The notes under the pieces: generated by a model
The model's database searches: none
Told to the model about the DNA's origin: nothing
What the model saw: only the letters and a program-made list of their open reading frames with translations
In this document: positions 5,962 to 17,440 of the stretch, one piece after another
Layout of the letters: each line of letters starts with the position of its first letter
Position numbering within the stretch: the first letter of the stretch is position 1
IMG/VR virus record: IMGVR_UViG_3300044612_000719
Coordinates: 1 to 64,000 of that record
Strand: one strand, 5' to 3'
DNA from: a virus
Length of the DNA stretch: 64,000 bases
Made by a program: the position numbers and the translations under genes

Positions 5962-7521
5962 TTAACTTCCTGTTGACATATTAAAATTTAGTGCAGTCAT
6001 AGCCTGTCCCCATTTAAATTCTTTATCTATTTTTGCTACTTGTTTACAAATAGTTGAAGTACTTGGACTGAATATTTCAAATGTTATTTCTCCAACAAAC
6101 TGATATAAAGCATCACTGTCGGTATCCCATGGTTTAGATATGTTTGGTGTGGCTCTTGTGATGTCAAATGTTGCTTTTCTGTTAGATTGCATATCTTGTG
6201 AATTTGTAAAACTATGGATTAAATCTCCAACGTTGTAACCTCCCCCAGTTCCACCGCCATCTCTTCCTTTGTACTTAATGTCTATATCAATAGTGGCGTT
6301 AATGCTTTGCACATACCCAGCCTTAATAGCGTCCTCAAGTTGTTTATCCATAATAGTAGAAAATATGAATTTAGTAGGTTCTGAACTTTTTGAAAGTATT
6401 TCTGAAGGGGTGACGTTTACAAAGTTAGCGCCGTCTGCTGGTTCTATAAATGGTCTTTTAAATAAAGTAATACCTTGTAACGCTTCATTTTCTGCATCAA
6501 CTGGGTCACTCCCGTTTGATCCTGGGTCACCTGGGTTACTGTTTGCATTTCTAAGAGTTGTTGTAAGGAATGTATCTTTTGAAGCAAACCCAATGTACAT
6601 TGCCTGCATGTTGATAGACACAGTGCATTGCGTAGGAACCATTGCGTAATTAAACTTGTTAAAAGTTACTGTAGATGAAGTGATAAATCCTTCAACCATG
6701 TACAAAGATGAAAACACAATACGCACTGGTTGTGAAATAAGAAACGCAGAGTTACCAACGCTTCCCCCTAAGAAATCTCCTACCTTTTTCTCACTCAGCG
6801 TTATTGGTGTTTTGTCATCTTCATCTGTAGTTGATTCGTTATTTTCTTCGGTTACACCAGCGTTGTATGTATTAACATTTTCTTTTAATTTTCCTAAAAT
6901 ACTGTTAATTAAATCAGAGTTAATACCTTGTCCAATAATAGAGTCAAAGACAAGAAGGTCTGCCAGTACACCAATGTCTGATACGGATGTAGGATCGTAT
7001 TGACCTAGTTTGGTTGGTATCGTTCCACCGTACGGTCCAACGTTTCCAACAGTTACTTGTGATGGGAAGGTTGTGGCTTCAGTGCGTGGTTTCCTATCAA
7101 TAGGTACTTGACTAGAACCATCGTCATATGAGCCAGTTGCAACTTCTGCTTCTCGGTTAAGGATGAACTCAAACGCAAAGTTGGCATCTCCAGGAATTGG
7201 TGAAACCAATTGACCAGGATCTTGGTTCATCCAAAACTGAACGTCGTTTCGTGCAGATACTGAACGTACTAAAACATCTGGATTGAATTGAAAATGGAAA
7301 CGACGGTTCTGTAGTTTCCTTGCAGTAGCATCCGTTCCATACGCTTCCGTAAGCATACGAATATAACCACGTTGTAATTTTAACTTTTTATTAGTTAATG
7401 AGTTACGGTAATCCTTACCAGGGAATAAAAACCGTGGGTTGTCATCTCCTCCAACTTGTTGAGGAGTACCTGTCTCATATGAGTTAAAGTTATAAAATTG
7501 ATCTGAAGCGTACCTAGCCAT
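5962..7521 (-). CDS. Tube/baseplate adaptor protein, CIS-tube-like N-terminus
   Basis: The 519-residue product has an early segment (about residues 72-130) with 'RRFHFQFNPDVLVRSVSARN', 'FWMNQDPGQLVSPIPGDANF' and a following 'FEFILNREAEV'. Similar FQFNP motifs occur in CIS-tube-type and LysM-partner proteins between tube and hub. The rest is long, with acidic and Ser-rich linkers near residue 230 and a further beta domain. It lies between the tape measure gene and the LysM gene, which supports a role at the tube-baseplate junction. The exact homolog is not certain. Confidence 0.7.
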   Translation of the reverse strand: MARYASDQFYNFNSYETGTPQQVGGDDNPRFLFPGKDYRNSLTNKKLKLQRGYIRMLTEAYGTDATARKLQNRRFHFQFNPDVLVRSVSARNDVQFWMNQDPGQLVSPIPGDANFAFEFILNREAEVATGSYDDGSSQVPIDRKPRTEATTFPSQVTVGNVGPYGGTIPTKLGQYDPTSVSDIGVLADLLVFDSIIGQGINSDLINSILGKLKENVNTYNAGVTEENNESTTDEDDKTPITLSEKKVGDFLGGSVGNSAFLISQPVRIVFSSLYMVEGFITSSTVTFNKFNYAMVPTQCTVSINMQAMYIGFASKDTFLTTTLRNANSNPGDPGSNGSDPVDAENEALQGITLFKRPFIEPADGANFVNVTPSEILSKSSEPTKFIFSTIMDKQLEDAIKAGYVQSINATIDIDIKYKGRDGGGTGGGYNVGDLIHSFTNSQDMQSNRKATFDITRATPNISKPWDTDSDALYQFVGEITFEIFSPSTSTICKQVAKIDKEFKWGQAMTALNFNMSTGS

Positions 7522-10202
7522 TACATTCCTCTCAATGCCGTTGTCTTAACACGGCGTGCAACGATGTCAGCAATTTCTTGAGCAACCCTATTAGCGTCTG
7601 CTGTGTTGTTACCTGACGATTGAATATAGATGTTTGGGGCGATTGTAATGCCACCTCCACCACCTTCTACGATTACTGTGTTCCCACCACCACGTGATGG
7701 TGCGTTAAGAGGGTCACCTGAAGGACCATGCGTAGTACTTCTGGCTGTTCCAGGAGGTAGGTCAACTGAATTAAGTTTCCCTACACCAGGCCATGTTATG
7801 TTTCCCCTTACAATGGATTCAAACCCATCGTGAGCATGGAATTGATCTAGTAGAACTTTGGCTACTTTCTTTTGATCTTCAGGAGTTGCCAGTGCAGGGT
7901 TCTTTGCGTACGCTAAACCGCCACCTCGGTTCCAGTTAAATTGATTCATGGCAAACCCACCCATAAGCGTGCCATCCCTATTTTTTACAGTTCTAGTCCA
8001 GTCTTTTTGTTCATGTAAATGTAAGGCTTCTAGATCAGCATCACTAAATGACTGTGGAACAAAATATCCCCAACCATCATAGTTTGGGGTTGTTCGGTAC
8101 TTGAACCCCGCAGGAATGTTTCCTGACCTAGGTGCTGTTGCAGGGCTTTTACTTGTTCCAACTCCTGCTGAGGATGCCGACCCAGTACGTAGGGTTACCA
8201 TACGCCCACCAGCGCCACCACCACCTAAACGCATTCGGTTTGATGCACGATCATAGGCAATAGAATCAGCAATACTCAATTGTGAGTTAACAGCGATACC
8301 ACTGCTTGTGTATGTACCGCTCTGAGACTCTCCTTCAAAAGTAGCGTCGTATGGGTAAGCCGCAGTTCCAGCAGGTCCACGACCCCATGGCGCACCCGAC
8401 TCTTCATACTTACGACGACTGTTTGGAAGTTCTGCAGGTTGTACGTGCCATGGCTCATCAATGCTTGCAATGGTCTTTAATCCAAAGCGTGAAGCATTTC
8501 GCATAAACCATTCTTCGTCAGCCTTTGTAGGGTAATGAAGGTCAACAGCCAAACCAAGTTCATGCATTGACATTCCTGGAGGAGCCGCATCTGGAACACC
8601 CGCATGCTTCTTCCAATAAGAACCATCCCAGAAGACACCAGTCTTTTCAGAAGTCTTTGAGTAACGGGACAAGAACATAGTTCTCTGGTCAGAAGATGAG
8701 CGATAACCTGTTCCAATAGTAATTCCTGGTCGTTCTGCCATCATCTGACGCAAACGGTCACCAAATGTTTTATTAATACTATTTGGAACGTTGGGTGCTC
8801 CACCACTACCACTAGCGCCATTAGTTGGTTTAGACCCACGTCCTTTTTCTACAGGGTCACCACCAAAGATACTAAGAGCATCATTGATAGGTCCCATGAT
8901 GGAACCAAAACCTTTACCAAGCATATTGGTAATTGGGTTACCACGAGTACTAATGCGTGCACCGATAATGGCAGACGTTAAGTCTTCAATCTTTGTGGTT
9001 AACGTTTCCATCTTCTGCGTGTTACGTTCCATAGACGCATAATTATCTTTTTGTTTGTTATAGAAACTCTCCGCACGTTGTTCTCTACGTACGTCAGTTA
9101 CTTCACGTTCAGTAGCAAAGTTTCCTTCAATACCCATTGTTTTAAGTTGATCACGGTTACCAGGGTTATACATACCCTGTTTTCCACCCGTCTTCTTTTG
9201 ATACTGGACATTCTGCATTGCGTATTGAATAACGATGTCATGCATATCCTCAGGAACACCCATGGCAGTAAGTCGTGCACGAGTCGTGGACCCAGGTTGC
9301 AAAGCGCCTTTAACAACACGCTCATTGGTCAGACCTGCACCACGAACAATAGATTGAATTACCTGCATTGGAGAACGTTGCTTACCACCAGGTCCATAGA
9401 TGCCTGTACCCAACGTCATGGTCATGCGGTTATTTACTTCTGGAGAAGCCATGGTTGTAATCATTTGGTTTACATCAGCGGTACTTAAACCAAAACCGCT
9501 GATGGTTCTAATAGCCTCAACGCTTCTAGACATCATCTGGGCATTAAGTCCAGTGTTTGCCTGTAGGCGAAGCATTTCATTAATACCGCCAGGTCCTAGG
9601 CGGAAGTTGTTAATTGGTTGCCTAAAGCGGTTGTAGTTAGTCTGTTGACTAATGCCATACATCTGTTGGTACATGACGCTCTGTCGGTCATTGACCAGTG
9701 ATGAACTATATCCAGTGTCAATTCTGGCATCTAGTTTTGCCATCGCTTGTTGCATTTTGTCAAGTTGAGACTTAACAACTTTAGAGGCGGCGGCAAAAGC
9801 GGCACCGTAAGGACCTCCAGCCGCCGCAGCCATAGCACCTGCTCCACTAGCGCCCCCTCCTGCACCAGCAATTCCAGCGGCTTGTGGTGCTCTAACCATA
9901 GACGCACTTTGTATGATGGCGTTGTTGGTGGCGCCTGCTGTGCTTGTAGCGGCGTTGGTACTGCCAGAAGACATGCCTTGAACAGAACGGGTTGTATTAC
10001 TTGCGGCTGTATTTAGTTTTGTAATCTCCTCACGAAGTTTTACAACCTTTTTAGTGAGGTCATCATACGTAGTCATCCACAGACGGGCTACAGATTTGTC
10101 TAAACGTAGTCCTACGCTTGCGTTGACGCTAGCGGTGTTGCCTGTTCCTGAACGTGAGCGACCGCCTAAAGCACCATCACCTAAGCCACGTTCTTCAACC
10201 AT
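7521..10202 (-). CDS. Tape measure protein with M15 peptidase and Rpf-like lytic domains
   Basis: The 893-residue protein combines a tape-measure-type N-terminal half (about residues 1-430: coiled coil, Ala/Gly-rich and Gln/Met-rich helices) with two apparent peptidoglycan hydrolase domains. Residues about 480-600 form a D-Ala-D-Ala carboxypeptidase (VanY/M15) domain with the zinc motif SMHELGLAVD and a later EPWH. Residues about 697-800 resemble a transglycosylase of the resuscitation-promoting-factor type ('LMGGFAMNQFNWNRGGGLAY', then 'ATPEDQKKVAKVLLDQF'). Gly-rich linkers separate the domains. It follows the tail chaperone genes, as tape measures do. The enzymes probably open the cell wall during DNA ejection. 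At 893 residues it predicts a moderate tail length. Confidence 0.85.
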   Translation of the reverse strand: MVEERGLGDGALGGRSRSGTGNTASVNASVGLRLDKSVARLWMTTYDDLTKKVVKLREEITKLNTAASNTTRSVQGMSSGSTNAATSTAGATNNAIIQSASMVRAPQAAGIAGAGGGASGAGAMAAAAGGPYGAAFAAASKVVKSQLDKMQQAMAKLDARIDTGYSSSLVNDRQSVMYQQMYGISQQTNYNRFRQPINNFRLGPGGINEMLRLQANTGLNAQMMSRSVEAIRTISGFGLSTADVNQMITTMASPEVNNRMTMTLGTGIYGPGGKQRSPMQVIQSIVRGAGLTNERVVKGALQPGSTTRARLTAMGVPEDMHDIVIQYAMQNVQYQKKTGGKQGMYNPGNRDQLKTMGIEGNFATEREVTDVRREQRAESFYNKQKDNYASMERNTQKMETLTTKIEDLTSAIIGARISTRGNPITNMLGKGFGSIMGPINDALSIFGGDPVEKGRGSKPTNGASGSGGAPNVPNSINKTFGDRLRQMMAERPGITIGTGYRSSSDQRTMFLSRYSKTSEKTGVFWDGSYWKKHAGVPDAAPPGMSMHELGLAVDLHYPTKADEEWFMRNASRFGLKTIASIDEPWHVQPAELPNSRRKYEESGAPWGRGPAGTAAYPYDATFEGESQSGTYTSSGIAVNSQLSIADSIAYDRASNRMRLGGGGAGGRMVTLRTGSASSAGVGTSKSPATAPRSGNIPAGFKYRTTPNYDGWGYFVPQSFSDADLEALHLHEQKDWTRTVKNRDGTLMGGFAMNQFNWNRGGGLAYAKNPALATPEDQKKVAKVLLDQFHAHDGFESIVRGNITWPGVGKLNSVDLPPGTARSTTHGPSGDPLNAPSRGGGNTVIVEGGGGGITIAPNIYIQSSGNNTADANRVAQEIADIVARRVKTTALRGM

Positions 10203-10208
10203 GCTTCA

Positions 10209-10385
10209 TCAGTCTCCAGAGTTACGCCATTTACCCATTGCCGACCAGTACGTTCTTTGACGTACCGTCATGTTTTGTATGTCGTTGAGCGTAAAGCCCT
10301 TGTAAACCGTAGCGATCAGATCGTATTCCCAGTATATATGAACCAGATTAACCAAATAAAAGGGATGCCCAATCAAGCACGATGT
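10209..10385 (-). CDS. Candidate frameshift-encoded extension of the tail assembly chaperone
   Basis: This open frame has 58 codons, no ATG near its beginning, and lies +1 (equivalently -2) to the upstream 260-residue chaperone gene, which stops at 10348. It runs through that stop and ends in TGA six bases before the tape measure ATG. The encoded residues include 'YWEYDLIATVYKGFTLNDIQ' and 'TVRQRTYWSAMGKW', which resemble the C-terminal T-type part of tail chaperones. The overlap contains TCC CTT TTA TTT GGT TAA in the zero frame, and a GGAGGAG sequence at 10392-10398. An independent gene would need a TTG start. I favour programmed frameshifting, as in lambda G/GT and Mu, but a small separate ORF remains possible. 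Confidence 0.6.
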   Translation of the reverse strand, partial: TSCLIGHPFYLVNLVHIYWEYDLIATVYKGFTLNDIQNMTVRQRTYWSAMGKWRNSGD

Positions 10386-11130
10386 TTAAGTCTCCTCCAC
10401 ACGTGGCGCACTGGGCATTCACCTCCCCAATTTCAGGGCCTGGCTGGTTGTCCAACAAGACTTTAACTAGGGCACTTCTATCTTTTAATCCAAGCCCTTT
10501 AGCCCATTCAACTGGGTTATGCATTGCTGGGTGTTCCACACAACGAGCCAACATTAAAGTGTTTTGCTCCGCCACAGTCTTAGACTTCTTTGCAACTATC
10601 TGGCTGTCTATACCATTAGGCAACCGCATTTTAACAACTGTTCCATCGCCAAGGGTGTACTCCAAAGGCAGTTTAGGGTCATGTGTTGTTTCTCGGTTTT
10701 TAAATGTGTCCATAGTGATAATCACATCATTGGATGCTTCACAAGACATGCATTGGATTTGGTACTCACGGTTATTACCGTAAGTGGCTTCAATGATCTT
10801 CAAGAAAAGAATGTCACGGTCACCAATAATTAGGTTTTCAATAACCGAAGGGTTTTCAGCAACGGTTATAGACCCTACGGATACAACAGCCCGTTTAAGC
10901 AGAAACGTCATGTACTCGGCGTACACGACGTTCCTACTATCCATAGATGCTAGGGACTCTTCATCAAAGCCATTAAGTTCACGAACCTTGGCTTCGGTTT
11001 CCCATGAATTAGTTTCTTTATTAAAAACTCCACGAATGAGTTCAACACTCGTTGTGGGGGCTTCTTTAATCTCAGGTACCTTCTCACTAAGAGCGGCATT
11101 GAGTGCGTCAGCCTGTTGCTTTTGATCCAT
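10348..11130 (-). CDS. Tail assembly chaperone / T4 gp26-like protein with zinc motifs
   Basis: The 260-residue product carries two Cys-x-x-Cys pairs: CMSC near residue 140 ('YQIQCMSCEASNDVIITMD') and CATC near residue 245 ('NAQCATCGGDLNIVLDW'). This pattern is known from the T4 baseplate gp26-like family, which occupies the tail chaperone position in several myoviruses. The gene lies between the tube and tape measure genes, the standard location for tail assembly chaperones. Its last 30 codons overlap the +1 frame described at 10209-10385. An AGGAG ribosome binding site precedes the start. Confidence 0.75.
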   Translation of the reverse strand: MDQKQQADALNAALSEKVPEIKEAPTTSVELIRGVFNKETNSWETEAKVRELNGFDEESLASMDSRNVVYAEYMTFLLKRAVVSVGSITVAENPSVIENLIIGDRDILFLKIIEATYGNNREYQIQCMSCEASNDVIITMDTFKNRETTHDPKLPLEYTLGDGTVVKMRLPNGIDSQIVAKKSKTVAEQNTLMLARCVEHPAMHNPVEWAKGLGLKDRSALVKVLLDNQPGPEIGEVNAQCATCGGDLNIVLDWASLLFG

Positions 11131-16355: not shown

Positions 16356-16511
16356 TTACCATTTTCCTATCGGGCATTTTGACCCTCTTAGTTGTGCTTT
16401 TACTTTCATGAAACAACCACACTCTTTACATGTCATGGTTGGTGCGAATAAACGAGGGCACTCACGACAAATGTCCAGGCGCTGTTCTGGGGTAAGTTCT
16501 TGTGGACTCAT
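16356..16511 (-). CDS. Small zinc-ribbon protein, DUF6171-like
   Basis: The 51-residue product has the pattern C-x2-C-x9-C-x2-C-x-C-x12-C: 'DICRECPRLF', 'TCKECGCFMKVKAQLRG' and a C-terminal 'KCPIGKW'. This ending and the GCFM-x-x-K motif match a small zinc protein found in many tailed phages. Its ATG at 16511 overlaps the stop of the fibre-like gene as ATGA. It may bind nucleic acid or act in assembly, but its role is not known. I identified it by translating the interval between two larger genes. Confidence 0.75.
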   Translation of the reverse strand: MSPQELTPEQRLDICRECPRLFAPTMTCKECGCFMKVKAQLRGSKCPIGKW

Positions 16512-17440
16512 ACAGGAGAGTATATAAACCTTTCCACCCCTGTTGACGCCGTACCTGAAGTAATTGGCGCCAAGATAACCCCATGTCGTTTTCCTGTTAT
16601 AGGACTGGATGGAGTGTTAGTTAAAGTTTGAGGAGTAGCCCCACCATTCATTTGAGCAGTTGCTGTAATAGTCCCAGCCTTGGAAGCGGTTACTTGTACA
16701 TATCCAATAGTAGATGTAGCCGTTGTAGTGGTTTCAATAACCTTTGAATCCACCTGTGAAACTACTCCAGAAACTGATTTTATTAATCTAATAGAGTAAG
16801 AGTATTGTGCGGTTGCCGCATAGGTAGCACCTGTAATAGTACTGACAATAGGATAAGGAGTACAAGTAGACGAGGCTGATCCTAAATGATTCAGTGTTAA
16901 TGCTGTGCAATAAAAAGTCTCAAGACTATCACCACCAAAACAAGGTCCAGGAGATTGGCAAAAATCAGGGACATACGAAGTGCCAGAAGGGCAACCGTAT
17001 GCATAACACTCAGTTCCAGACAACGTAGTGCCAGCAGGACACGAATAAACACAAGAAAGACCATAATCCGTTTGTGTTGTGTCTGGTTTTTTACAGTTAG
17101 TACCAGTCAATGTGTCGTTAACTGAATCACAAATGTATCCAAAAGTTCTATCTGTCACCACAGCCCACCAGTTATCTGCATCCCTAACCCAAAAACCCAC
17201 GCCCCATCCATGGGTCCCTGCGGTTCCAAAATCAACACGAACATTTACACCGATAGTGTTGGCGTTAAATGTAGCAAGAGGGTACGAGGAAGCCGCTGTT
17301 GCTGTGTATGCTTTATCAGAAAGCACCGACCATGAACCACGTGTACTCGTCCAGCGTTGTGCTAACGAACCTGTTCCTGAGAACTCGTCTGTGAATGCAC
17401 GAGTTGCTGCAACTGCGGAATCTACAATTCCTGGAATCAT
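16508..17440 (-). CDS. Virion or adhesin protein with LamG-like and Cys-rich regions
   Basis: The 310-residue product begins with a segment typical of concanavalin/LamG-like folds ('FTDEFSGTGSLAQRWTS', then 'GWGVGFWVRDADNWWAVV'). Residues about 105-200 are rich in Cys with eukaryote-like spacing, including 'CPAGTTLSGTECYAYGC' and 'CQSPGPCFGG', which suggests disulfide-bonded small domains. The C-terminal part is Ser/Thr-rich beta. It follows the fibre-like gene at 17444. It could be a surface-exposed decoration or receptor-binding protein. The Cys-rich insert is unusual for a phage virion protein. Confidence 0.65.
   Translation of the reverse strand: MIPGIVDSAVAATRAFTDEFSGTGSLAQRWTSTRGSWSVLSDKAYTATAASSYPLATFNANTIGVNVRVDFGTAGTHGWGVGFWVRDADNWWAVVTDRTFGYICDSVNDTLTGTNCKKPDTTQTDYGLSCVYSCPAGTTLSGTECYAYGCPSGTSYVPDFCQSPGPCFGGDSLETFYCTALTLNHLGSASSTCTPYPIVSTITGATYAATAQYSYSIRLIKSVSGVVSQVDSKVIETTTTATSTIGYVQVTASKAGTITATAQMNGGATPQTLTNTPSSPITGKRHGVILAPITSGTASTGVERFIYSPV

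Follow-up and report, generated by a model that had tools for sequence, protein, structure and literature searches.

The production of G and GT proteins by frameshifting upstream of the tape measure gene is well established, and the shift is -1, -2 or +1 depending on the phage (PMC5009743). The locus described here raises the question whether a gp26-like gene is extended in this way, and in which direction the ribosome would slip. It lies in a stretch of 64,000 nucleotides (positions 1 to 64,000 of IMG/VR virus record IMGVR_UViG_3300044612_000719), referred to below as the window. The source record is a virus contig of 97,275 nt, in which a profile search found one PF12322 gene. From the comparisons set out below, it is very probable that the locus encodes a G/GT tail assembly chaperone pair made by +1 programmed frameshifting at CTT_TTA (10362-10357).

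Tail module and overlapping reading frames

Profile matches revealed a contractile-tail module on the minus strand of the window, comprising the genes for the sheath, the tube, a gp26-like G and the tape measure protein. The overlapping G and T ORFs sit between the tail tube and tape measure genes, as expected of G/GT chaperones. The features are as follows.

13399-11822, minus strand, tail sheath protein (phrog_23, E 5.5e-45)
11801-11160, minus strand, tail tube protein, gp19-like (PF06841, E 3.2e-20)
11130-10348, minus strand, G, putative gp26-like tail assembly chaperone, 260 aa, zero frame (PF12322 T4_baseplate, E 1.7e-10; phrog_150 baseplate hub, E 5.5e-13)
11130-10209, minus strand, predicted GT fusion, 306 aa (P0001), a putative product translated with one base skipped at CTT_TTA
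10752-10741, minus strand, CxxC zinc knuckle 1 of G (C127, C130), invariant in 37 diverse sequences
10410-10399, minus strand, CxxC zinc knuckle 2 of G (C241, C244), with C244 invariant and C241 conserved in at least 90% of 37 sequences
10362-10357, minus strand, candidate +1 shift site CTT_TTA (P-site CTT 10362-10360, A-site TTA 10359-10357)
10361-10209, minus strand, T domain in the +1 frame (first +1 codon TAT 10358-10356, stop codon TGA 10211-10209)
10350-10348, minus strand, zero-frame stop codon TAA of G, 4 codons past the shift codon
10202-7521, minus strand, tape measure protein, with its ATG at 10202 (phrog_16823 tape measure, E 3.3e-14)

The original prediction described a frame in the +1/-2 register without a usable ATG, overlapping the end of the gp26-like gene and extending up to the tape measure gene, and frame translation confirmed this. 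The +1 (equal to -2) frame is open from 10385, after a TAA at 10388-10386, to the TGA at 10211-10209, a length of 58 codons; it shares 35 nt with the end of the gp26-like gene and then reaches almost to the tape measure ATG. Its in-frame ATGs (10271 and 10238) fall only within the conserved core, and a TTG at 10376 is not conserved in relatives. The sequence CCCTTTTATTT, said to adjoin the zero-frame stop, was found at 10364-10354, and the CTT_TTA site lies inside it.

The tape measure protein (7521-10202) also carried a VanY-like domain (PF02557) and a transglycosylase-like domain (PF06737, below the Pfam cut-off). Because of these domains and of relatives from Streptomyces, Saccharothrix, Actinomadura and Nonomuraea, an actinobacterial host is suggested. 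A further ORF in the tail gene region of the window (16508-17440) encodes a Cys-rich stretch in the middle of the protein. Rfam and tRNA scans of the window gave no matches.

The G protein

G matched PF12322 with 41.4 bits against a curated cut-off of 24.5 and was assigned to this family. Its AlphaFold model (pLDDT 88.6) was compared with predicted viral proteins by Foldseek, and matches were obtained to T4-like hub assembly proteins, e.g. A0A6J5QW39 (TM 0.95), to a hub subunit of SP-15 (TM 0.63, E 3.8e-12) and to gp26 of Aeromonas phage 25 (TM 0.49). Sequence and fold searches of the PDB with G yielded nothing significant, the only match being a weak one to YqbN. In the model, the first CxxC pair lies between strands 120-126 and 133-139 and the second between strands 236-240 and 247-251; the position of both pairs in beta hairpins is consistent with a predicted zinc ribbon.

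Conservation of the +1-frame extension

The ends of G genes were inspected in loci collected from close relatives, from Streptomyces phages by tblastn and from increasingly distant IMG/VR sequences. The resulting 139 loci comprised IMG/VR contigs, the Streptomyces phages BRock, LuckySocke, GiJojo and pSt2308, Bacillus phage SP-15 and Streptococcus phage GXN1. The T extension lay in the +1 frame relative to G in all 139 distinct loci (the window counted), a tally that includes mutually related sequences and corresponds to 61 clusters at 70% amino acid identity. A +1 shift with a zinc-containing G had been regarded as an uncommon variant; within the gp26-type family it is the rule (139/139). Conservation of the shift site in relatives, proposed originally as a check, was also observed: near the zero-frame end every locus carried one motif, either CTT_YTA (71 loci, the window's clade) or TTT_C (68 loci), without exception.

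An HMM built from the window's clade alone gave its best match in the +1 frame in all 66 loci that it detected among the 68 of the other group, and with the reverse HMM, from the other group to the window's clade, the +1 frame was best in 71/71. Because 138 other loci share the +1 frame and the HMMs match best in this frame across clades, the extension is, as judged by sequence comparison, far beyond chance. Comparative evidence strongly supports the predicted frameshift, by which a T-like domain would be appended to a zinc-containing G-type chaperone. The usual T pattern among the loci was Y.EY.....YPGW.L.DI..L.VRER..W. A T-domain profile of 38 rows, the window's own T among them, matched the 97-kb record once only, at exactly 10209-10361 (E 1.8e-21), while comparison of the window's T with Pfam and PHROGs found no family. 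The T of SP-15, searched as a single sequence, did not match the T profile significantly; the frame, the position and the TTT_C of SP-15 do fit.

Three bacterial-genome loci fetched afterwards, two from Streptomyces (L360 and L361) and one from Nonomuraea (L362), likewise had TTT_C and T in the +1 frame. In Listeria phage LIS04, G ends with GAG TTT TTT AGT and T is in the +1 frame, which represents a TTT_T variant of the site.

Selection on the two frames was compared within the window's clade. Upstream of the site, pN/pS was 0.51 in the zero frame versus 1.06 in the +1 frame, and 0.45 versus 1.02 over the 30 nt directly preceding the site. Past the zero-frame stop the relation was reversed, with 1.35 for the zero frame and 0.32 for the +1 frame. 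The selected frame switches from zero to +1 around the shift site. Since constraint changes frame there, a T ORF starting further upstream is argued against.

It is very unlikely that T is made independently as a small protein whose translation begins within G or directly behind it, by re-initiation or a coupled start, at TTG 10376, at TTG 10355 or at a non-standard codon. TTG codons are available for such a start in the window, and separate T ORFs occur in distant relatives, i.e. the huge phage LR756511 (TAATG) and KVP40-type T4-likes with an ATG. The candidate starts are, however, not conserved, and 61 of the 139 loci have no ATG, GTG or TTG in the +1 frame before a point ten codons past the site. 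The +1 frame upstream of the site is not under selection, and no Shine-Dalgarno sequence precedes the site in any of the 71 CTT-type loci. In GenBank, T is annotated from a TTG in BRock (gp135) and from an internal ATG in LuckySocke (91), both of which fall within the conserved domain; in pSt2308 it is not annotated.

The shift site

The shift site was first picked out by searching the final part of G for a pattern. Among the CTT_YTA loci, 49 had CTT_TTA, as in the window, and 22 had CTT_CTA; CTT was followed by YTA in 71/71 loci of the clade and in 49/49 after clustering at 90%. The distance from site to stop was 4 codons in 71/71 CTT-type loci and 2-9 codons in the 68 TTT-type loci. The site was always TTT in the 29 loci with at least 57% GC, though their other Phe codons were 170 TTC versus 10 TTT (about 95% TTC). 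Where a TTT-type locus had only one Phe among the final ten codons, this Phe was encoded by TTT (all 54 loci). Under the clusters' own codon usage, and with phylogeny ignored, the rough chance of such constancy was 1e-25 for TTT (39 clusters) and 1e-14 for CTT (22 clusters). Dual coding, as Leu-Leu in the zero frame and Phe-Tyr in the +1 frame, could explain part of the constancy of CTTYTAT in the CTT clade.

In several loci the +1 frame is closed by a stop 2-3 codons before the site; in another case (L260) the zero-frame stop follows two codons past the site codon. Because of these nearby stops the slip, if one site is common to all loci, would fall within a few codons of YTT_Y. A P-site tRNA on CTT_Y or TTT_C can re-pair on UUY after a +1 slip. 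The direction had originally been given as +1 or -2, and it is the +1 option that stands as the most likely. A -2 shift at the same place, as used by Mu and others, leads to the same frame (PMC5009743) and would make the fusion one residue longer. It would, however, move tRNA-Leu from CUU onto CCC/CAC, and tRNA-Phe from UUU onto UGU or a similar triplet, so that neither could re-pair at the invariant site, whereas the +1 slip always leads to UUY; a -2 shift is therefore regarded as extremely unlikely.

There is only a negligible chance that the G and T frames are joined by transcriptional slippage or by a sequencing or assembly indel. Although CCCTTTTATTT contains a short T run, this run amounts to only 4 T in the window and to just 3 in most TTT_C relatives, and the same arrangement of G and T was found in 139 separate loci, isolate genomes among them.

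The surroundings of the site gave no sign of a stimulator. Shine-Dalgarno-like words were absent from the 20 nt upstream in all CTT-type loci (0/71), and downstream RNA structure was not conserved (mean folding z +0.44 for the CTT type and -0.12 for the TTT type; +1.2 to +2.4 for the window). The GGAGGAG reported upstream of the site is present at 10392-10398, but it is a coincidental part of the Cys-Gly-Gly coding sequence, and close relatives have GGAGAAG, GGTTTAG, AATGCAG or GGAACAG at this position. As a Shine-Dalgarno stimulator it was rejected, being not conserved and too distant, at some 30 nt before the shift codon. Exceptional rarity of the A-site codon was also rejected as driver of the shift, the usage of TTA and CTA in the phage (13.6 and 6.9 per 1000) being not strikingly low. 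Shifting at the stop codon was rejected too, since the preceding codon varies (GGT, GGC, AGT, GGA, CTC), as does the distance in the TTT group.

Comparison with known systems

The frameshifts of lambda gpG/gpGT and of other TACs were reportedly described by Xu, Hendrix and Duda in 2004 and are reviewed in PMC5009743. The lambda frameshift is -1 at GGGAAAG. Like lambda, the window has a short G and a predicted longer GT, extended by frameshifting, ahead of the tape measure gene, with T off-frame and without its own start. It differs in the putative +1 shift at CUU_UUA, in a G that belongs to PF12322 and has two CxxC knuckles, and in the contractile tail. A site permitting -2 tRNA re-pairing, as for a Mu-type -2 shift, was not found in the window.

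At the shift site of release factor 2 (RF2, prfB) the A site is occupied by a stop codon and a Shine-Dalgarno sequence lies upstream, whereas the A site of the window holds a sense Leu codon and the Shine-Dalgarno sequence is absent (0/71). Common to both would be the slip of P-site CUU to UUU, at a CUU with a pyrimidine as the next base (U in RF2, CTT_TTA in the window). In RF2 genes CUU_U is the highly conserved shift site, and UUU_U is found in a minority of species (PMC5009743).

Earlier work inferred a +1 shift in myoviruses of haloarchaea (PMC8211752) and proposed TTT-CGC as the +1 site of the tail chaperones in the HF1 group (PMC7230728). Sequences of HF2 and HSTV-2 were checked, and both carry TTT_CGC. 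As in the window, the HF1 group and HSTV-2 have +1-related chaperone ORFs between the tube and tape measure genes (PMC7230728; GenBank join in NC_020159), but their G proteins are without CxxC and the site of the window is CTT_TTA. The T of HF2 did not match the T profile significantly, and homology with the haloarchaeal T is not claimed.

T4-like TACs were identified by Vladimirov, Gautam and Davidson (Virology 2022), as cited in PMC12846349. The G of T4 is of the same Pfam family, PF12322, as that of the window, but the pair is split, as others had already reported, into two genes: gp26 is G only (PF12322, E 8.8e-64), and gp51 is G with a T-like tail in frame (PF12322, E 3.9e-52; phrog_634, E 1.2e-23). 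Because gp51 holds a T-like C terminus in frame, duplication would replace frameshifting in T4. As a naturally occurring fusion of G and T, gp51 also speaks for the GT reading of the window. The two T4 genes (7803-8429 and 8480-9229 in L277) are paralogues of one Pfam family. In cyanophages and other T4-likes (L269-L275, L278-L357), G ends with T_TTT_TTC, and for 84 of 85 loci T (small gp51) was placed in the -1 frame. The T (gp51) of ACG-2014d (L273) and S-SSM6b (L274) is without a start codon, pointing to probable -1 frameshifting in these phages. The T profiles of the +1 group and of the T4-like -1 group were alignable by hhalign (E 1.2e-5, probability 81%). In LR756511 (a 595-kb phage), a T-like ORF in the -1 frame starts at a TAATG where G ends, and some relatives, such as this phage, seem to have a separate T start. 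One family thus seems, from its sequences, to make the same chaperone pair by a +1 shift, by an apparent -1 shift or from two genes.

Proposed mechanism

For the slip, its efficiency and the chaperone role of the products we infer the following course, +1 slippage appearing to be the most economical mechanism. Most ribosomes would translate G in the zero frame and end at the TAA at 10350-10348, giving 260 aa. In a minority, peptidyl-tRNA-Leu would sit on CTT with TTA in the A site and slip forward by one base, its anticodon re-pairing with UUU. TAT (Tyr) would then be read in the +1 frame and a T domain of 49 residues added, resulting in a GT of 306 aa. In TTT_C relatives, the peptidyl-tRNA would slip from UUU to UUC. 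If lambda serves as a model, the tape measure protein would be covered by many copies of G and a few of GT, with T bringing in tube subunits, and neither G nor GT would remain in the virion.

Significance

A literature search with limited cover of subscription papers found no +1 shift described for BRock-like Streptomyces phages, SP-15 or the freshwater clade, nor any description of a CUU_YUA shift site. The family-wide +1 rule and the CUU_YUA site appear to be new, G/GT frameshifting itself being classical. We lean towards the view that gp26-type chaperones of actinobacterial, Firmicute and freshwater myophages share an ancient +1 signal, YUU_Y at the G/T junction, which acts without a stimulator, and that CUU_YUA represents a class of efficient +1 sites not described before.

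According to the PRFect paper, a general forward motif has yet to be identified, and the program covers forward shifts only by three or four identical bases (PMC10885494). Because these motifs exclude the CTT_Y codon pair, general tools are likely to miss the site. The predicted GT would be a gene product that lacks annotation in many contractile phages, and it can be looked for by a simple rule, namely a +1 shift at TTT_C or CTT_YTA close to where a PF12322 gene ends. A natural +1 site with no obvious stimulators would be useful for mechanistic work, and with the same chaperone pair apparently made by a +1 shift, by an apparent -1 shift or from separate genes, the evolution of recoding becomes testable within this family.
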